Below, in pieces: positions 15,078 through 25,935 of a DNA stretch of 36,510 bases. The stretch comes from an uncultured Lachnospiraceae bacterium (lineage in GTDB: Bacteria; Bacillota; Clostridia; Lachnospirales; Lachnospiraceae). The stretch covers positions 1 to 36,510 of the forward strand of contig CASUON010000002.1 of assembly GCA_949457475.1 (NCBI GenBank). The letters run 5' to 3'. The position numbers and the translations under genes were made by a program. Under the pieces are notes generated by a model. It worked only from the letters and a program-made list of their open reading frames with translations, made no database searches and was not told the origin of the DNA. Within the stretch, counting starts at the first letter, position 1; each line of letters opens with the position of its first letter.

Positions 15078-16487
15078 TTAGATATCATTTTCAAGGAAGA
15101 TATGCTGGCGGTTTTTTACTGCGGCAGGTTTTACATTTTCTGAAAAACCGACAAGGCCTATGGTCAGTTTGAAGCAGCCGTCTTCTGTACGGAAGTTCAT
15201 GCGCCCGCCGTAATGATCCAGTACTTTTTTTACACTGTACATTCCGTATCCATGGTTCTGTTTATCTGTTTTTTCGGTTTCTGGAATTCCATTCTTCTGG
15301 TTTATTTCTATTTTGGCAGGGTTATTTAATACGATAACCGCCATGCGTTTTTGCCTTTTGCATGAAAAATACAGCCAGCGGCTGGACGGTGCGTCCTGCC
15401 TTAAATTTGATTCTATTGCATTATCCAGGATATTCGAAAACAGCGCACAGACATCGGCCGGCTGCAGGATTAAGCCGGACATGTCATCACATTCAAGCTC
15501 GACGCGGATACTGCCTTTGTGCGCATCCTGCAGCTTTCTGTTTAGGATCAGGTCTAAGATAGGGTGGTTTGTCCAGACGCGGCTTTGGCCGCGTGCCAGC
15601 TCTCCATAGATTTGCTGCACATAATCCAGTGCAGCGTGGTTTTGGCCATCTATAATCAAATCATGCAGTGCGGACATGTGGTTTTTCATATCATGCATCA
15701 GTGCGGCTTTTTCTTTCTGTGCTTTTAAAAGGGACTGGTAATTATCTTCAAGCATCTGGAATCTTACATGCAGCAGTTGATCCCTTGCCCGTTCTTTTTG
15801 CAGTGTCCGCAGCGCGAAAATCACGGCTGCAGCAAAAAAGAATGCCATCCAGCTTATGACCAGCCGTTCCGCTATCAGACTTTTATAGACCCTTTGAAAG
15901 TAAATGACGCATAAGGCAAGGGGCAGCATGGCTGGGAGAGACAGATTTTCCAGGCGTTTTTTATATACGTTCTGCAAAGAGGTGCTGCAGGATAGGTTTT
16001 TGCGGGTCATTTTTAGGCCCCATAAAAGAAATGCGGCAAAAATCAGAAGATACGATCCGCGGCATGCATTTTTGGCGGTCAGTATGTCAGCACTTACGCC
16101 GAAGCTTTCGATAAAGATGCTGCACAGCGACATCAAAAACAGGTCAAAGAGAGACAGCGCCGCCCAAAGGCTGAATGCACTGCAAAAAGCTGTTTTTCTG
16201 GAGTCGGGACGCAGGAAGGCCGACAGTATGCCGGCCAAGAAGGCATTCGCAATAAACGCTGCATGTGAAAAAAGATCCAGCTTAAAATAAACGCTGCAAA
16301 GACTCCCCAGGAGCGCAGGGATAAACGCGGCCGATACTACTGGTGCAGGGCGTTCCTTTTCTTTCCTGCACGGCGGGAATGCACAGGCGAGCCGAAGCGT
16401 AGCGCAGGCTTTCACAAAAGTATTGATAAATTCACTTCCATAATAAAAAAAGTCCATCATAAAAAAGTCCATCATAAACGCTCCCAA
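15078..16487 (-). CDS. Sensor histidine kinase with GHKL ATPase domain (AgrC-like)
   Basis: Multi-TM N-terminus, LMHDMKNHMSALHDLI, LFSNILDNAIESN, HGYGMYSVKKVLDHYGG. Confidence 0.85.
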   Translation of the reverse strand: MGAFMMDFFMMDFFYYGSEFINTFVKACATLRLACAFPPCRKEKERPAPVVSAAFIPALLGSLCSVYFKLDLFSHAAFIANAFLAGILSAFLRPDSRKTAFCSAFSLWAALSLFDLFLMSLCSIFIESFGVSADILTAKNACRGSYLLIFAAFLLWGLKMTRKNLSCSTSLQNVYKKRLENLSLPAMLPLALCVIYFQRVYKSLIAERLVISWMAFFFAAAVIFALRTLQKERARDQLLHVRFQMLEDNYQSLLKAQKEKAALMHDMKNHMSALHDLIIDGQNHAALDYVQQIYGELARGQSRVWTNHPILDLILNRKLQDAHKGSIRVELECDDMSGLILQPADVCALFSNILDNAIESNLRQDAPSSRWLYFSCKRQKRMAVIVLNNPAKIEINQKNGIPETEKTDKQNHGYGMYSVKKVLDHYGGRMNFRTEDGCFKLTIGLVGFSENVKPAAVKNRQHIFLENDI

Positions 16488-17200
16488 AATGTCAGCATTT
16501 TTGCTTCAAAATCTTTTTTCATCCGGCGGCTGCAGTGTAGTACGGCCCCTGAGTCCAGTTTTACTTCATCTTTATGAAATTCCGCAATGCGCGTAAGATT
16601 TACAATCTGCCCGCTGTTGATATAGGCAAATTCTGTTTCGGGAAGTTCCGAAAAAACAGTTTTCAGCGGCTTTCGTTCCACGTACTGGGCGCCGCTGCAA
16701 TAAAAGACGGCATCTTTGCCGTTTCTTTCTATGTAGAATATATCGTCAAGGCAGACTTTTTCATATGCAGAGCTATTTCCAACAAGGAAGCTTTTTGTCT
16801 GGCGTTTTCTTGATTCTTCCATACAGATTTTATGCAGCACCTTATGCAGCTTCTTGTCATGCTCTTCTTTTAGTATATAGTAAAAAGCACCTATTTTTAT
16901 GCTTTGAAGCGCGTATCGTTCATAAGAAGTAATGAATACGATATAGGACTGCGCGGAAAGACGCATAATAGCTTCAGCCAGCTTCAGCCCGTTTATTCCG
17001 GGCATTTCGATATCCAGAAAATAGATATCATACCGCAAGCCCTGCCTCAGGCAGTCTGCAAGGTCTGTTCCGCTTTTATAAATTTTTACCGCCGGTTTAT
17101 CCGTGTCCCAAAACTCCTGGATGGTCCGGCAGATTTTCCGGGCAAACAGCACATCGTCATCTGCAACGGCTATTTTAAAACGGCTGTTTTCTTGATTCAT
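16472..17200 (-). CDS. LytTR-family response regulator
   Basis: Receiver domain (IAVADDDVLFARKI, YFLDIEMPGINGLKLAE) + LytTR domain (DDIFYIERNGKDAVFY, FAYINSGQIVNLTRI). Confidence 0.9.
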   Translation of the reverse strand: MNQENSRFKIAVADDDVLFARKICRTIQEFWDTDKPAVKIYKSGTDLADCLRQGLRYDIYFLDIEMPGINGLKLAEAIMRLSAQSYIVFITSYERYALQSIKIGAFYYILKEEHDKKLHKVLHKICMEESRKRQTKSFLVGNSSAYEKVCLDDIFYIERNGKDAVFYCSGAQYVERKPLKTVFSELPETEFAYINSGQIVNLTRIAEFHKDEVKLDSGAVLHCSRRMKKDFEAKMLTFWERL

Positions 17201-17647: not shown

Positions 17648-18568
17648 TTAAATATGAAATTCCTTTCTGGGATGTTTTGTTGTCAGAATATCCCTTTGTT
17701 TGGACATTGTGACATGAGTATAAATTTCTGTAATATTAATCGAGCTGTGCCCGAGCATTTCTTGAATATAGCGGATATCCACATCTGCTTCTAGCAGGCA
17801 GGTTGCGAAAGTGTGGCGGAACATATGCGGCGTAATGTGCAGTTCTATGGCAGCAAGGGACGTGTATTTACGGATCATCCTACGGATGGACTGGTCGGAA
17901 AGCGCCCTGCCGGACTGGTTTGCAAAAAAATGGCTACAGCTCTGCATTTCGGCCAGATAAGTGGTCCTATATTTTTCTAAAGCATGCAAAACATCGTCAT
18001 TTCCAATCTGGATTTTTCTTTCCTTGGAACCTTTCCCATAAATTAAGATACTTCTGTCATGTAAATTTACATCATTGATTTTTAAGGAACATAACTCCGA
18101 AATTCGCATCCCAGTTGCAAAGAGTAGTTCAATTACTGCGATATCCCTGAGCGCGTTTTTCTTCTGAAAGGCTGTTTTGGCCTCCGTATGATATGTATAG
18201 ATTGCAGTTAAAAACTGCTCTACGGTATAGAGGGGGATTGTTTTGGGCAATATGGCTGGATCGCGGAATTTAACTTGTATTTTACTAAAGAGATTCCGGT
18301 CTATGGCGTCTTTGTATTCAAGGTAGTGGAAAAACGCTTTTACGGAGGCGATCTTTCTTTTGACTGTCTTTGGCTTGTATTTTTGATGTAGCGTTGCGAT
18401 AAAATCTTCCAATGTACCTGTCGTAATATTGGTTATGCTATTAGTGGATATGATGGAACAGAATTGTTTCAGGTCGATGCTGTAAGCTTTTTGTGTTTTT
18501 TTGTCCAGCCTTTTTTGGGATTTGCAGTATTCCAGATAGTTATTTATGTGTGTATGTAGGTTGTCCAT
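17648..18568 (-). CDS. Tyrosine recombinase (XerC/XerD/phage integrase family), probably a DNA invertase
   Basis: N-terminal SAM-like domain; catalytic R (ATGMRISELCSLKINDV), HxxR (ITPHMFRHTFATCLLEA), LGHSSINITEIYTHV tyrosine; RBS aaggagg. Confidence 0.93.
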   Translation of the reverse strand: MDNLHTHINNYLEYCKSQKRLDKKTQKAYSIDLKQFCSIISTNSITNITTGTLEDFIATLHQKYKPKTVKRKIASVKAFFHYLEYKDAIDRNLFSKIQVKFRDPAILPKTIPLYTVEQFLTAIYTYHTEAKTAFQKKNALRDIAVIELLFATGMRISELCSLKINDVNLHDRSILIYGKGSKERKIQIGNDDVLHALEKYRTTYLAEMQSCSHFFANQSGRALSDQSIRRMIRKYTSLAAIELHITPHMFRHTFATCLLEADVDIRYIQEMLGHSSINITEIYTHVTMSKQRDILTTKHPRKEFHI

Positions 18569-18779
18569 ATAGTTGTCCTCCTTAGCTGTGTTGTTTTAAA
18601 ATATATCGTATAGGGGAGTTAAAAAGCGTATATGTGGCGGATTGTGATTTCTGTCGGTTGGACAAGTAGTAATTATTATTATCGAGTGGGTACTGAAAAA
18701 GCGTATGCATATTTGGCATGTTGATGGGGCGCTGTTGGAGGTTGAATGAAAAAATTGATATTACAAGATAAAAAAAGTG

Positions 18780-18807
18780 TTGAATGTAGTTGGATTTATG
18801 ATATAAT
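18780..18807 (+). promoter_or_regulatory. Candidate sigma70-type promoter just outside the left inverted repeat, reading into the cassette
   Basis: TTGAAT - 16 bp - TATAAT; about 32 bp before the 50-bp inverted repeat. Confidence 0.65.
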
Positions 18808-18839
18808 ATACTAGAAATATCGAAAAAATAGTATAAATA

Positions 18840-18889
18840 TTAAAAGTGAAGGATAATACTGGATTATCCGTTAATAGTATTATTGGACA
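18840..18889 (+). repeat. Left copy of a perfect 50-bp inverted repeat bounding the proposed invertible segment
   Basis: ttaaaagtgaaggataatactggattatccgttaatagtattattggaca; exact reverse complement at 24559-24608. Confidence 0.98.
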
Positions 18890-18945
18890 GATTTAACATG
18901 ATTATTTATTTCAATCCATAATTAAAAATAAGTCAGGTGAATAGA

Positions 18946-20052
18946 ATGAATAAATTATTGTCAAAAGCGAATATTTTAATTCGGCAAAACCGGCCATTAG
19001 ACAATCCTGATGAAATAATAACTGTATTTCGCAGAAATAATTTTCTCCAGCTTACATTCCACTCAAATGGGTGCAGGTATAGTGCAGCGGGTTCCTGTAC
19101 TATGTGCAATTATGGTATCGGGAAAATTGCAAAATTACAAGATATTTTATCAGAATTAGAGACAATTTGCCAATCAAAAGATTTTAAAGAATGTGATATG
19201 ATACTCCTCGGTGCATCCGGAAGCTTTTTGGATGATCAGGAAATTCCAGCTGATTATCAGCATAAAATAATGGAACGAATTGCCAAAAGCCATATGCAGG
19301 AGATACACATTGAGACTCATTATAAAAGTATTACGAATCAAAAATTGCATAATATACGTAAAATTTTTCAAAATCAAACAATTACTATAGAAATGGGTCT
19401 CGAAACAGTTACGGAAGAGTTTCAGGAAAATATACTAAATAAAAAAATTCCGTTAAGCGAGTTGAATTCAGTAATAAAGCAAATACATACTGAAAAAATG
19501 CTGACAGCTCTTAATGTACTTGTAGGAATTCCGTTTTTATCAGAAAAGGAACAGCTTGCAGAAGCTTTAAAAACTTTACGCTGGGCATTGAACAACAACG
19601 CTGATTATGTAGTGCTTTTTCCTATAAACATACAGCCATATTCTCTTTTTGAATGGTGGCATAAAAATAATTATATCACTGAACCATCTCTATGGATGCT
19701 TGTTTATTTATTATCAGAATTATCTGATGATGAAATGAGGCACGTCTGTTTTGCGTGGTACGGAAACAGATGTATTACATACTCAAATGAAAGAAAAACA
19801 CAGACTCCACAGGCCTGTTCCGTATGTCGGCCGCAATTAATTAAATTTTTTCAAAAATTTTCGAGTGATTTTAATATAGAAACCCGAAAAACATATCTGA
19901 AACAATTTCTTCAAACAAACTTTGAATGCGATTGTTTCGATAAGTTAAAAAATAAAATTAAAAAAGATACAGACAATTTCCCGGATTTGAAAAGGGGAAA
20001 TTTGGCAGTTAAAGAATGGATGGATAAATATGCAATTGATGGATGCAATTAA
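18946..20052 (+). CDS. Radical SAM protein (Elp3/archaeosine-synthase RaSEA-like architecture)
   Basis: CRYSAAGSCTMCNYG (Cx7Cx2C), ILLGASGSFLDD, IEMGLETV; C-terminal extra cysteines (CSVC, CDC). ATG at 18946 with aggtg SD. Confidence 0.8.
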   Translation: MNKLLSKANILIRQNRPLDNPDEIITVFRRNNFLQLTFHSNGCRYSAAGSCTMCNYGIGKIAKLQDILSELETICQSKDFKECDMILLGASGSFLDDQEIPADYQHKIMERIAKSHMQEIHIETHYKSITNQKLHNIRKIFQNQTITIEMGLETVTEEFQENILNKKIPLSELNSVIKQIHTEKMLTALNVLVGIPFLSEKEQLAEALKTLRWALNNNADYVVLFPINIQPYSLFEWWHKNNYITEPSLWMLVYLLSELSDDEMRHVCFAWYGNRCITYSNERKTQTPQACSVCRPQLIKFFQKFSSDFNIETRKTYLKQFLQTNFECDCFDKLKNKIKKDTDNFPDLKRGNLAVKEWMDKYAIDGCN

Positions 20053-20650
20053 CAATCGAAAAAGCATTCGAAAATTTAAAAAGATAAAAATAGATACACA
20101 AGAGATAAAACAAATTATCAATGCCGCGATACTTGCTCCTTCTGCAAAGAACCGACAGCCATGGCATTTTTATGTCATTCAGGATAAAGAATTGGATATT
20201 CTTTTGGAAAAAGTAGCTGAAGGAATTGAGAATTTATCAGAAGAATATAAAAAAGCAGGCATTTCCAGACCGGATATAGACGCAGCTTACCATACGCTAG
20301 AGAGTATGCATCAGGCATCTGCCATTATAATTATTACATGTAAAAAGAAATATAAAGAAAGTTTTTCAGATGGTGTTAATTGGTATTTAAATGCTCTTGA
20401 TATTGAAACAACAGATATTTTATCAATTGGTGCAGCCATTGAACATATGCTGTTAAAGGCGACTGAAATGGGATATGGAACACTTTGGGTCTGTGATATT
20501 TTTTATGCTTATCCGCAAGTAGTAAAATATTTGCGAACAGATGATGCGGTTGTATCAGCAGTTTGTATCGGATGCTCGGATGAATTTCCATCTGTCCGTT
20601 CACGTCTGTCTATGAATGAAGTAACTACTTTTTATCAAAGCAAGGAGTAA
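20030..20650 (+). CDS. Nitroreductase-family protein
   Basis: MDAINNRKSIRKFKK ... AAILAPSAKNRQPWHFYVIQD ... LSIGAAIEHMLLKATEMGYGTLWVCDI; overlaps the radical SAM stop by 23 bp. Confidence 0.9.
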   Translation: MQLMDAINNRKSIRKFKKIKIDTQEIKQIINAAILAPSAKNRQPWHFYVIQDKELDILLEKVAEGIENLSEEYKKAGISRPDIDAAYHTLESMHQASAIIIITCKKKYKESFSDGVNWYLNALDIETTDILSIGAAIEHMLLKATEMGYGTLWVCDIFYAYPQVVKYLRTDDAVVSAVCIGCSDEFPSVRSRLSMNEVTTFYQSKE

Positions 20651-20655
20651 AATAC

Positions 20656-22950
20656 ATGGATCATATATATTGGATAGGTATAAGAAAATCCGATCTATTG
20701 ACAATTGAAAATTTATATAAAGGATCAGTAACTTTTTTTGGTGATGGAAAAAACGGAAATATATCATTATCACAAACGGGCATTTCCCGTATGAATCACA
20801 ACGTAGATTCGCCAGTTTTTTTTGAGTTTTACGAAATGGCAATGCAACAAATTTTAGATGAAGATAAAAATGCCAAATTTATGTTTTATAATCCGATTCT
20901 GGCATATTTTTTGGATGAACGATTTCGAAAAAGAATTATTTGCCTTAATAATTTTGACGTTCTCAAAATTATTAATAATAAGATATTATGCAAACTATGG
21001 CTTAAAGATCATATACAAATGCTGGGAAATGTTCAGATGTTCGGAAAAGAAATTTCTTTAGAACATCTGAATAAGATTTTAGGCCATAAAAATGAGTATA
21101 TTGTTCAGCTTCCCATTTCTTCTGGAGGCGCAGGAACATACATTTTAAATAAAGATAATGAAGAATCAGTTATTGATCAATTAGATTCATTTAAACAGTA
21201 TATTATCTCTGTTTATTATCCAAATGCAATCCCGATAAATGTACATTGTGTTATTTATGAAAATGACTATTGCATTTATCCAAGTTCAGTACAAATCATA
21301 AAAATAGAAAATAATAATCTTTTATATAAAGGCTGTGATTTTATTGCGGCAAATTCCTTAGACTGGGAAACACAAGAACAAATAAAAAAACAAGCATCCT
21401 TTATCTGTAAAAGATTGTGTAATATCAATTATCGTGGCATTTGTGGTATTGATTTTATGATCATTCATAATAGTGTCTTTTTTTGTGAGATTAATCCAAG
21501 GTTTCAGGCATCTACTGCAATATTAAATTTTGCTCTGGCAAACGAAAATTTATTGTCTGTAAATGAAACAACTATCAATGCTTTTAAGAACCATGGACCA
21601 GATAAAACAATACCTTCCTTTCATGTACCCTACAGTTCATATGCATATGAAGAGCGCCGTGAACTGAATAGTTTTCATAAAAATATATTTCATACTTATT
21701 TTGAGTTGTATCCTGAATATCGAATATTTAAAGATGGATATGATTTTGATGTAACAGCTGAGTCAGGCGCCTATCTATTCAGAGCTGTTTATTCACGTCC
21801 ACTTATCAGCATCTGTCACAATGAAATACATACGTATGAACTTTTTACGGGATATACTTTGCCAACTCCTTTAAATTTGATTCAGCTAAAGATTATGTTA
21901 TTAACTTTCGGTCTTAAGATTTCATCGAAAGCTTTATCATTTATAGAAGAAATAGGAAAAATACGTGAAGCAAATTTTACGGCAATCGACATAATTTTAT
22001 TGGATGATCTGGTGATTAATTGCCCATATAAAACTACTTTTACAGATTTTAGTCCATTTACAATAAATATGGATGATCAAAAACTGCTTTTATTTTATTT
22101 TGAACATAAAATCACTGAAATAAAAATTTATTATGAAAGTAAACTTAATCAGAAAAAAACCCAAAATGGTACTTTTTATAGTTCCGCTGCTTTTTTAGCT
22201 ATGGATCGTTTAAGGATTAATTACAGGCCTGTCTGCTACTATAAAGAAAATGGAAAAAGCTGCCAGTTTTGCAATCTTCCAACGGTAAATCAATCTTATG
22301 ACTTTGAAACTGTTTGCGAAATAATTGATGGATTTTTGGAAGGTGAACAATTTCGGCATATATTATTAGGAGGTGGTTCCGATGATCCGAAAAGTGATTT
22401 TTCGAACATTATTGAATTAACCGCTTATTTGAAAAATAAATCTGATAAACCTATTTATTTAATGTCCCTTCCGCCATATAACCTTGAAATTATCTCTAAG
22501 TTATACAATGCCGGAATCTCTGAAATAGCATTCAATATAGAGGTATTTGATGAAAAATCCGCTATGAAGTATATGCCTGGAAAAGGTTATATTCCCAGAG
22601 AATATTATTATGAAGCTTTACGCAAAGCAGTGATGTTATGGGGTAAAGAAGGAAATGTACGCAGTATGGTGATCATTGGATTGGAACCAGAACAGACTTT
22701 ATTAGCAGGTATCGAAAAATTATGTCAAATAGGTGTGCAGCCAATGCTTTCCATATTCCGTCCATTGGAGCATACACCATTAAGAAATCTGATACCATTG
22801 TCCTGTCAATATTTATACGAATTATATCTGAAAATTTATAATATTTGTTCGAAATATGGCCAGATACTTGGTCCAACTTGTACCTATTGTCAAAATAATA
22901 CACTTGCTATTTCTGAAAAATATGAAAATAAAGAAATTGTTATAATATGA
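20656..22950 (+). CDS. ATP-grasp / radical SAM fusion protein
   Basis: N-terminal ATP-grasp-like region (YIVQLPISSGGAGTYIL, GICGIDFMIIHNSVFFCEINPRFQAST); C-terminal radical SAM (CYYKENGKSCQFCNLP, ILLGGGSDDP, FNIEVFDEKS, MVIIGLEPEQT). RBS aaggag. Confidence 0.8.
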   Translation: MDHIYWIGIRKSDLLTIENLYKGSVTFFGDGKNGNISLSQTGISRMNHNVDSPVFFEFYEMAMQQILDEDKNAKFMFYNPILAYFLDERFRKRIICLNNFDVLKIINNKILCKLWLKDHIQMLGNVQMFGKEISLEHLNKILGHKNEYIVQLPISSGGAGTYILNKDNEESVIDQLDSFKQYIISVYYPNAIPINVHCVIYENDYCIYPSSVQIIKIENNNLLYKGCDFIAANSLDWETQEQIKKQASFICKRLCNINYRGICGIDFMIIHNSVFFCEINPRFQASTAILNFALANENLLSVNETTINAFKNHGPDKTIPSFHVPYSSYAYEERRELNSFHKNIFHTYFELYPEYRIFKDGYDFDVTAESGAYLFRAVYSRPLISICHNEIHTYELFTGYTLPTPLNLIQLKIMLLTFGLKISSKALSFIEEIGKIREANFTAIDIILLDDLVINCPYKTTFTDFSPFTINMDDQKLLLFYFEHKITEIKIYYESKLNQKKTQNGTFYSSAAFLAMDRLRINYRPVCYYKENGKSCQFCNLPTVNQSYDFETVCEIIDGFLEGEQFRHILLGGGSDDPKSDFSNIIELTAYLKNKSDKPIYLMSLPPYNLEIISKLYNAGISEIAFNIEVFDEKSAMKYMPGKGYIPREYYYEALRKAVMLWGKEGNVRSMVIIGLEPEQTLLAGIEKLCQIGVQPMLSIFRPLEHTPLRNLIPLSCQYLYELYLKIYNICSKYGQILGPTCTYCQNNTLAISEKYENKEIVII

Positions 22951-22976
22951 TTCAGCTGCCTATATTAGAAATTGTT

Positions 22977-23016
22977 AAAAATGGTTTTCTGCCTGATTCA
23001 TTAGAAAACCATTTTT
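22977..23016. terminator. Bidirectional terminator between the two cassette modules
   Basis: AAAAATGGTTTTCT - 12 nt - AGAAAACCATTTTT perfect 14-bp stem with A/T tails on both sides, between convergent ORFs. Confidence 0.9.
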
Positions 23017-23057
23017 AACTTTGTCTGATTTAGTAGTTTTTAGGTTAAATTTGTATA

Positions 23058-24515
23058 TTAAAGCTGAATATCTGTTTCATCCGACTCCTCAGTTGGGTTA
23101 TCAATAATATATTGAACTGTATATTGTACATTATTATTTTCAAGAGCTTCGCTTCTTTCTTCTGCTCTTTTTAACTTTTCTTCTTTTTCTTTAATTTCCA
23201 GTTGATTGAGCCTGATTTGCTGATGTGTTAATATTTTCTGCTGAATAGAATCATGTACTTTTGAAAATGTCAGAAACATATTGACTAAGAAAATAAGTTC
23301 ATTGTAATGAGCACAAATAAATGCAATAAAATTACATTCTGAATTATGTCGTATCTCAATATGACTTATTTTCTTTGTACATAAATCATTGATGGAAGAA
23401 TCAATATGTTCGATAAACTGCATCATTTTTTCTGATTCTTTAGAATCGATATTTGTCTGCATAATAATTCTGGCAGTAGGAAATTCATCAAAACTGTCTA
23501 ATAAAGAAGAACGTATTTCGCCAATATTATAGATAAAACTTCTCCGTTCATAAATATTGAATTTCTGTTCTGATACATATTGCTCAATAGATGTATATAA
23601 TCTTTTTAACACATCATATGAAAAAATATTTCCTTGTTTTGCTTGTTTGCAAAAAAACTTAAGCATTCTGAAATTTCTTTGTGCGATAGATTTCCGTATT
23701 CCCATTACAATAGAATTAAAAGCAAGATTTTTTTTGTTTTCTGCTAAATATATATTGGCCAAAGGAAAATATTCCTCTATAGAAGTATAATAAACAATAA
23801 ATGATTCTTTTAATCCCAAATATTCTTCCATCGTAATCATTTGATTATCTGCAGACAAAGTTATATCTTTTTTATTATCCGGCAGCGCATTAAATATCCC
23901 ATAAATATACGGAAACTGAGACATAGGGAAACTGACATTTGATAAATTACAATTTTTTAATTCCATGTACTCAATATTTGAGTTCGAAAATGTAACATCT
24001 TGAAAAGTGCAACAAAGGAATACAGTATTTTCCATCATAGAAGATGAAAACAGGCAATTTTCGAAATTACATCTTTCAAATAATATTTCCGCAACAGTAG
24101 AGCCTTTAAAATTTACATTTTTAAATGTGACTCCATAAAAATTTGAATAGCTTAGGTTCGTGCTTTTAACATTTATATTTTTCCATGTATTTTTTATAAA
24201 TTGGCAATATTGTACATTAGATTCACAGAATGTCGAATTAGATAAACCTGTATTTGAAAAATATGAACCTGTTAATGCAGCATTTCCAAAATTAACGTCT
24301 TGAATCTCGCTATCAATTAATGTGCTCCTCTTCAAACTAACATCTTCAAAACTGCCGTTTATCTTGAGGTTAATTCCATTTTCAAATAAGCGATTATTAT
24401 TTTGCATTAGCGATATATATTTTTCTAATGTATGAACTGCATTTTGTACCTGTATATCAGAAAATTGCTGAATACCATTTTCTAAATGTAGTTTTATATC
24501 CATATATTGCTTCAT
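23058..24515 (-). CDS. Pentapeptide-repeat protein with long helical/coiled-coil C-terminal region
   Basis: NLSYSNFYGVTFKNVNFKGSTVAEILFERCNFENCLF... semi-regular [ANST][LFV]xx[SN] pentapeptides; charged helical tail (LNQLEIKEKEEKLKRAEERSEALE). Confidence 0.8.
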   Translation of the reverse strand: MKQYMDIKLHLENGIQQFSDIQVQNAVHTLEKYISLMQNNNRLFENGINLKINGSFEDVSLKRSTLIDSEIQDVNFGNAALTGSYFSNTGLSNSTFCESNVQYCQFIKNTWKNINVKSTNLSYSNFYGVTFKNVNFKGSTVAEILFERCNFENCLFSSSMMENTVFLCCTFQDVTFSNSNIEYMELKNCNLSNVSFPMSQFPYIYGIFNALPDNKKDITLSADNQMITMEEYLGLKESFIVYYTSIEEYFPLANIYLAENKKNLAFNSIVMGIRKSIAQRNFRMLKFFCKQAKQGNIFSYDVLKRLYTSIEQYVSEQKFNIYERRSFIYNIGEIRSSLLDSFDEFPTARIIMQTNIDSKESEKMMQFIEHIDSSINDLCTKKISHIEIRHNSECNFIAFICAHYNELIFLVNMFLTFSKVHDSIQQKILTHQQIRLNQLEIKEKEEKLKRAEERSEALENNNVQYTVQYIIDNPTEESDETDIQL

Positions 24516-24558
24516 ATGTATGAATGTTTCCTTTCAGTTAAATTTTTATGATAAGAAT

Positions 24559-24608
24559 TGTCCAATAATACTATTAACGGATAATCCAGTATTATCCTTC
24601 ACTTTTAA
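24559..24608 (-). repeat. Right copy of the perfect 50-bp inverted repeat
   Basis: tgtccaataatactattaacggataatccagtattatccttcacttttaa = exact reverse complement of 18840-18889. Confidence 0.98.
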
Positions 24609-24802: not shown

Positions 24803-25935
24803 ATGGCAGAAGATAAAAGAAATCGTGCACCTAAAATAGAAAATAAAACAGAAAAACAGGATGTTTCCTATAATCCACCCAAAGGAGCAACAAACATAAC
24901 AGCAGATAACCATAACAATTTTAACACGAATCAGCCTAGCGTCATTGCAAAAAAAGCCGATGCCAGCACAGGCGCACGCGCAGGGAAAGGCGGGGCAGTA
25001 ACCAAACAGGCGATTCGCAGGGCCGTCAAGAAGCTAAGGCCGATTGACGACGTGCTTTTTCAAAAACTAGCCGGAGACAAACTGGTAGTCCAGGAAATGC
25101 TGCGCATAATACTGGAAGACCCATCTTTGGAAGTAATTGCTGTAACGCCGCAAAACAGCATCCGGAATCTATTTGGCCGCTCGGTACGCCTGGATGCCCT
25201 CTGCGACCTGTCCGGGGTGGGAAAGTGCAATATTGAAGTGCAAAAGGCAGACAATGACGACCACCTAAAGAGGGTAAGGTACCATGCGTCCTGCATTACA
25301 GCGAATATTACAGACATAGAGCGTATTTGAAAAATCATTCCCGCCATCTGCACGCCCCAATTTGCGTGATATTTGTGCCAAATTCAGGTTACATAGCCCG
25401 CTATGCGCCCTTCATTTGGCGCAAATCTCCCGCAAATTGGGACGCACATCTGCCGGAAAGCATTTTTCAAACACGCTCTGGCGTGGATTTTCGAGACGTG
25501 CCGGATGTATATATATTGTATCTGTCAGAGCACGACTTTCTGAAGGGAAACCGGACGATATACCATGTAGAGTCGGCGGTGAGGGAGACAGGCAAATATG
25601 TGGACGACGGCTTAAAAAGGGTATTTGTAAATACACAAATCGATGACAAGACGGATATCGCCGGTTTGATGAAATGCTTTTTGCAGACAGAAGTTGATAC
25701 ACCGAGATTCCCGGAGCTGTCAAGGGCAATGGGCTATTTCAAAAAAGAACGGGAAGGGGTGAAGCTTATGTGCGCAGTAGTCGATGATTTAATAAATATG
25801 GCAAAAGAAGAAGCAGAAGAGAAGGCAAGAGAGGAAGCAGAAGCGAGAAAACGCGAAGTAGAAGCGAGAAAACGTGCAGAAACGGAGCTTGCAATTTTAA
25901 AAGAAAAATTAAAAGCCCAGGGCATAACGATTTAG
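24803..25935 (+). pseudogene. PD-(D/E)XK nuclease / Rpn-like transposase-family gene split by a 162-bp palindromic element
   Basis: 5' part ends ...CNIEVQKADNDDHLKRVRYHASCITANITD(25315); the family sequence resumes at 25480 as GVDFRDVPDVYILYLSEHDFLKGNRTIYHVESAVRETG... Confidence 0.8.
25318..25479. mobile_element. About 162-bp imperfect palindromic MITE/REP-like element (family 1 full copy)
   Basis: AGAGCGTaTTTGAAAAATcattcccgcc... pairs with ...ggaaagcATTTTTCAAAcACGCTCT almost end to end; inserted in a coding sequence. Confidence 0.85.

Follow-up and report, generated by a model that had tools for sequence, protein, structure and literature searches.

Introduction

Phage tail-fibre segments such as the G segment of Mu and the C segment of P1 keep a fixed promoter outside an invertible segment that carries alternative genes, and use serine invertases to switch between receptor-binding proteins. 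We analysed a 36,510-nucleotide stretch of DNA from an uncultured Lachnospiraceae bacterium (GenBank assembly GCA_949457475.1, contig CASUON010000002.1, positions 1 to 36,510; hereafter the window), in which a perfect inverted repeat beside a tyrosine recombinase gene encloses two gene modules. This cassette resembles the Mu and P1 segments in having a predicted fixed promoter outside and alternative genes inside, and differs from them in its tyrosine recombinase and its cargo. We consider it, with a probability of roughly 80%, to be a two-state genetic switch, one of a family found across Lachnospiraceae whose cargo can be exchanged and whose two modules usually encode a set of enzymes and a defence-type effector. 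Dozens of such switches in related gut bacteria had, to our knowledge, gone unrecognised as one family.

DNA inversion by tyrosine recombinases is already known (PMC5903667, PMC7096588, PMC11892184). The FimB/FimE system of fim, RecV of Clostridioides difficile, PsrA at pneumococcal hsdS, and the invertons of Bacteroides all combine a tyrosine recombinase, inverted repeats, and a reversible inversion that decides expression, as is proposed here. In most switches of these types a promoter or gene segment flips, whereas here the promoter would stay fixed while two complete transcription units turn over, one of them usually a defence-type effector. The Xer/dif system and the pdif modules of Acinetobacter (PMC6449649, PMC11705084) are similar in their dif-like sites, in the genes carried between sites, and in the exchange of cargo. 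Whereas pdif modules are recombined by housekeeping XerCD, the locus described here has a putative dedicated recombinase beside a mostly chromosomal cassette, with one inverted pair of sites and two convergent modules. The literature searched, a set with few subscription papers and no bioRxiv preprints whose silence is therefore weak evidence, contained no description of whole immune-type effectors paired with whole enzyme modules in cassettes that have a single promoter and exchangeable cargo.

Structure of the cassette

The initial annotation of this DNA had described a perfect 50-bp inverted repeat around about 5.7 kb, two oppositely oriented modules within it, and an intact tyrosine recombinase 270 bp outside the left repeat, and all three descriptions stand. 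The arms (18840-18889 / 24559-24608) are complementary at 50/50 nt with 5669 nt between them, and the stretch proposed to flip measures 5.8 kb. Other inverted pairs of at least 30 nt among the matches listed for 16-27 kb (11 kb searched) are imperfect, with 70-84% complementarity, and the 50-bp sequence has only these two copies in the whole metagenome-assembled genome (MAG; 3.59 Mb). Two convergent modules fill the interior, the enzyme module on the plus strand and the pentapeptide-repeat module on the minus strand. The recombinase gene is intact and transcribed away from the cassette, with a gap of 271 bp between its start and the repeat. The features are as follows.

17648..18568, minus strand: XerD-like tyrosine recombinase, 306 amino acids (aa), proposed invertase (Pfam Phage_integrase, XerD alignment)
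18780..18807, plus strand: predicted single inward promoter TTGAAT-N16-TATAAT, strong-looking and sigma-70-like with extended -10, outside the left repeat (consensus match)
18840..18889, plus strand: left 50-bp inverted repeat (repeat search)
18852..18868, plus strand: left dif-like crossover core, GATAA-TACTGGA-TTATC (core comparison)
18937..20052, plus strand: RaSEA-like radical S-adenosylmethionine (SAM) enzyme, 371 aa, which opens the enzyme module (TIGR01210)
20030..20650, plus strand: nitroreductase-family flavoenzyme, 206 aa (PF00881, 1e-30)
20656..22950, plus strand: 764-aa fusion of ATP-grasp and variant radical SAM domains, central enzyme of its module (PF02655, PF04055, NF045502)
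22974..23019, no strand assigned: hairpin with an 18-bp stem where the convergent 3' ends meet, probably terminating transcription both ways (fold energy)
23058..24515, minus strand: pentapeptide-repeat protein, 485 aa, second module (PF13599, 6e-20)
24559..24608, minus strand: right 50-bp inverted repeat (repeat search)
24580..24596, minus strand: right dif-like crossover core, same sequence as the left, inverted (core comparison)

The hairpin has a fold energy of -30.7 kcal/mol, with z scores of -7.9 on the plus strand and -5.5 on the minus strand. A second cassette in the same genome was rejected for want of a second core pair; two lone cores (C292 and C319) lie near contig ends beside ordinary-looking chromosomal genes.

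Crossover core and recombinase family

The repeats of these cassettes have in common a dif-like 17-bp core, GATAA-N7-TTATC, which with longer arms reads from outside to inside roughly TGATGGATAA-N7-TTATCCGTYA. Its layout is that of dif, with arms of about 10 bp around a 7-bp spacer. The spacer often varies among loci and is identical at both ends of one cassette. Because some cassettes have repeats of just 22-31 bp, the core and its flanking arms are probably the minimal crossover region.

The link between core and recombinase was examined at 80 homologous recombinase loci in Lachnospiraceae, with ten shuffled sets as a control. A matched inverted core pair with identical spacers was present at 20/80 loci and at 0/80 in each of the ten shuffles. 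At a further 22/80 the contig ends immediately after a core. Contig ends at most 200 bp away were found downstream of the recombinase at 20/80 loci and upstream at 2/80; an assembly would be expected to break in this way at a flipping or collapsed repeat. Of 397 genomes sampled from the family, 33 encode a related recombinase (E at most 1e-110). The recombinase tree did not support one clean origin for either orientation class. One contig labelled Spirochaetaceae (L141, JAFQDD010000019.1) has a recombinase close to that of a Lachnospiraceae locus (L144), reflecting either transfer or mis-binning.

The window recombinase matches Phage_integrase (E=1e-43) and a SAM-like N domain. Its motifs GMRISEL, HMFRHTFA, LGHSS, and IYTHV align with XerD (PDB 1a0p, E=1e-32), and the catalytic motifs are intact. 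Every NCBIfam model matched scored under its curated cut-off. Identity with housekeeping XerC/XerD (243.6 of 335.15 and 240.5 of 329.6 bits) and with FimB/FimE-type invertases (PRK09870/PRK09871; 70.8 of 221 and 60.8 of 222 bits) was rejected. A phage or plasmid origin was likewise rejected, the recombinase being mainly chromosomal: viral sequences gave one IMG/VR match and three phage-collection records with 49.5-65% identity, and the plasmid search gave no match above 60% identity. A 126-kb viral contig (L184:9323-12692, IMGVR_UViG_3300006204_000004) encodes a 67% identical recombinase and has a core pair around two leucine-rich repeat (LRR)-like open reading frames (ORFs).

Both orientations in Eubacterium plexicaudatum ASF492

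Eubacterium plexicaudatum ASF492 (G003) belongs to the window's genus, has a cassette recombinase 80% identical to that of the window, and carries two loci of the same design, each present twice. Contig C3 and the region at C1:3.57 Mb have collinear flanks with 99.4-99.7% identity, and the 3.2 kb between their 50-bp repeats is inverted with 99.8% identity. Contig C2 and the region at C1:1.04 Mb have flanks with 99.5-99.7% identity and an inverted 6.5 kb between repeats with 99.0% identity. Each contig pair (~99% identical) differs solely by the inversion between repeats. At the C3/C1:3.57 Mb locus, the predicted promoter faces a gene for a serine hydroxymethyltransferase (SHMT)-like protein in one state and a P-loop ATPase in the other. 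C2 and C3 may each be a second assembly of the C1 site or the product of a recent duplication, and in either case comparison of the copies indicates that the segment flipped recently.

These sister loci also bear on the idea that the window carries a fixed inverted repeat, left by a mobile element and no longer invertible. Such a relic would fit the single orientation in the MAG and the PDDEXK/DUF6783-like transposase remnant just to the right of the cassette, but the perfect 50-bp identity, the intact recombinase, and a core shared with loci that have flipped make it very improbable.

ASF492 also holds a degraded relative of the window cassette (L061:9451-13540). It retains intact 143-bp repeats, while its pentapeptide-repeat gene is in two pieces, its ATP-grasp/radical SAM gene is broken, and its recombinase is a C-terminal remnant. 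On ASF492 contig C4, which is 238 kb long and encodes phage-tail-like genes and a ParA-like gene, convergent LRR (BspA-like) ORFs (L218, C4:84000-100000) are enclosed by the same core pair, at C4:91093 and 93102, in an arrangement that resembles a tail-fibre inversion switch. The core family of the window also surrounds LRR genes on a phage-like replicon, comparable to the tail-fibre segments.

Predicted promoter

The 34-bp promoter sequence is present at all ten sister loci read in the window's genus, with 0-4 mismatches. At nine of the ten it lies just outside a core and is aimed at it, the exception being L066, which lacks a core. The contigs of three sister loci (L068, L069, and L070) stop just past the promoter and core. 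Across 21 cassettes, a promoter-like signal exceeded that of shuffled sequence on one flank only (p=0.005 vs 0.10 and 0.38). With a recombinase that faces away from the repeat the signal is on the recombinase flank, and with one that points at the repeat it is on the other flank. A rule placing the promoter always on the recombinase side was rejected because the signal moves to the far flank when the recombinase points at the repeat.

Cassette family and cargo exchange

We compiled 34 cassettes, 27 plus 7 from an independent second set drawn afterwards. Two convergent blocks are present in 32/34, including 7/7 of the second set, and the exceptions (L064/L065 and L124) have an extra outward gene. 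In the typical cassette, enzymes of metabolism or sugar transfer face a defence-type effector of the STAND/NLR-like, TIR, SIR2, or pentapeptide-repeat kind. In 19 cassettes the second module encodes STAND/AAA/NACHT/TIR/SIR2/TPR-type proteins, with some of these domain calls under Pfam's own cut-offs and those for L112, L118, and L139 made via homology to scanned members. Facing them are glycosyltransferases, D-Ala-ligase-like ATP-grasp enzymes, SHMT-like pyridoxal phosphate (PLP) enzymes, and carbamoyltransferases or methyltransferases. Pentapeptide-repeat proteins occur in 9 cassettes. Five of these have ATP-grasp/radical SAM homologues opposite (the window, the degraded L061, L071, L095, and L148), three have different enzymes (L094, L110, and L124), and one has a protein with no Pfam match (L211). 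The second module is unrecognised in four cassettes (L088, L105, L119, and L210).

Two cassettes (L096:10992-13356 and L117:10975-13318) divide ThsA and ThsB of Thoeris, a system of known biochemistry, between opposite modules placed between invertible repeats; the window cassette has neither. The PADLOC models of ThsA (E to 1e-179) and ThsB each matched two members, and SIR2-STALD and TIR domains were identified by domain scan in L096 and by homology in L117. Relative to the recombinase, the orientation of the split genes in one genome is the reverse of that in the other. Roseburia faecis M72 (L117) has two cassettes about 6 kb apart, at L117:67-5117 and L117:10975-13318.

Cargo differs between otherwise similar loci. 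Two loci of one genome (L112 and L119) match at 95% identity as far as the left core, align again from the right core, and are unrelated inside. L088 and L110 have ~90% identical flanks as far as the left core and align again within ~0.3-0.9 kb past the right core, with unrelated cargo between. The recombinase, core, and flanks therefore act as a frame for exchanged cargo. These swaps, together with the dif-like core, would also suit repeats that serve mainly as sites of cargo exchange, like pdif modules or integron cassettes, with inversion as a side product. We regard this as unlikely, since both orientations in ASF492, a single predicted promoter flank, and the two-block structure of 32/34 cassettes suggest selection for switching.

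The initial annotation had further proposed that inversion exchanges which module faces the left-flank promoter. Sequence comparison supports this through the position of the promoter outside the repeat, its conservation in the genus, and the tie between the dif-like core and the recombinase family. Orientation in relatives, a comparison it had suggested, is not one fixed state, as both orientations occur at the two ASF492 loci. The opposition of ATP-grasp/radical SAM and pentapeptide-repeat modules that it described recurs in four more cassettes. What it missed is that the cassette is one of a large number of related ones, in which the second module is usually of a defence-like kind.

Cargo and neighbours of the window cassette

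The 371-aa radical SAM protein scores 126.9 bits against TIGR01210, under the cut-off of 212, and is only a relative of RaSEA (archaeosine synthase radical SAM); a contig search of other genomes with this protein found no relatives. The 764-aa fusion passes the variant radical SAM model NF045502 (156.3 bits, cut-off 125). The AlphaFold2 model of the pentapeptide-repeat protein (mean per-residue confidence, pLDDT, of 73) has a solenoid at residues 50-197, a helical domain, and a C-terminal hydrophobic/coiled helix, and its listed PDB matches are chiefly pentapeptide-repeat solenoids. The protein shares such a solenoid with HalA of Hailong and with Qnr/MfpA, and its C-terminal half differs. Identity as a gyrase-protecting Qnr/MfpA protein (Qnr 35.9 of 240 bits, MfpA 17.7 of 360 bits) or as HalA (45.8 of 250 bits) was rejected; the HalA sequence match is limited to the repeat region, and the fold match has a TM score of 0.12-0.16. 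From its position in the cassette family, the pentapeptide-repeat protein is probably a defence-type effector.

On the left, beyond the recombinase, lies a pair of genes for a GHKL histidine kinase and a LytTR response regulator (window 15078-17200). Close to the right end of the cassette, window 24803-25935 contains a PDDEXK-type transposase-like gene remnant and a DUF6783 ORF, and a stretch resembling window 25317-25479 was found near an ASF492 cassette (L064).

Proposed switch

In the switch that we propose, the XerD-like recombinase would pair the two inverted dif-like cores, whose 7-bp spacers are identical, and exchange strands across this spacer. This would turn over the ~5.7-kb cassette and leave the crossover sites intact. 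The fixed promoter at 18780-18807 would read whichever module faces it, and transcription would be expected to stop at the hairpin that separates the two modules. The orientation in the assembly would have the RaSEA-like radical SAM enzyme, the nitroreductase, and the ATP-grasp/radical SAM fusion ON, and the inverted orientation would turn ON the pentapeptide-repeat protein instead. The most likely role would be to split a clone into two groups of cells, one that carries the effector and resists phages and one that expresses the enzymes.

Several observations weigh against this switch. The opposite orientation was not found in the window's own assembly, and no recognisable core lies near 24/80 of the homologous recombinases, whose role as the agent of flipping is proposed from sequence. 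The promoters are consensus scores, and an internal promoter-like site at 18893-18922 would flip along with the enzyme module. A consensus terminator scan did not call the hairpin at 22974..23019. The defence role of the pentapeptide-repeat protein comes from family context, with no match above a curated cut-off. The split Thoeris genes of L096 and L117 are hard to square with strictly alternative expression: a Thoeris system with one gene made at a time should fail, unless inversion leaves both proteins present together or expression from the off module is leaky.

Because the Thoeris split is puzzling under one-at-a-time expression, a reading in which the modules make up the two parts of a single conflict system stays alive. 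Widespread invertible cassettes of gut bacteria would then split two-part conflict systems, Thoeris included, with one half made at a time. An enzyme producing a signal, mark, or inhibitor would be paired with an immune effector (STAND, TIR, SIR2, or pentapeptide repeat), for instance by making its ligand, and inversion, instead of choosing between alternatives, would limit or time the co-presence of both proteins and so immunity. Besides the two cassettes with ThsA and ThsB in separate modules, recurrent pairings fit this arrangement: an ATP-grasp/radical SAM protein faces a pentapeptide-repeat protein in 5/5 cases, and GT2 faces the Mrr-STAND family in 3/3. Other pairings are looser, however, with pentapeptide-repeat proteins also opposite an aminotransferase, another radical SAM protein, and a PLP decarboxylase, and with GT2 or ATP-grasp enzymes opposite several effector types; a single inward promoter is also predicted per cassette. 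We hold such two-part systems to be a tentative alternative, less probable than a switch between exchangeable modules.

Significance

It is well established that inversion underlies phase variation of surface structures and of restriction specificity. At least 34 Lachnospiraceae cassettes set whole immune-type effectors opposite whole enzyme modules, with one predicted promoter. Both states occur in the assembly of a named strain, ASF492, which makes the proposed switch directly testable. If it is true, new defence effectors could be found opposite the enzyme module, and part of the defence repertoire of these gut bacteria would vary within a clone, hidden in assemblies that record a single orientation.

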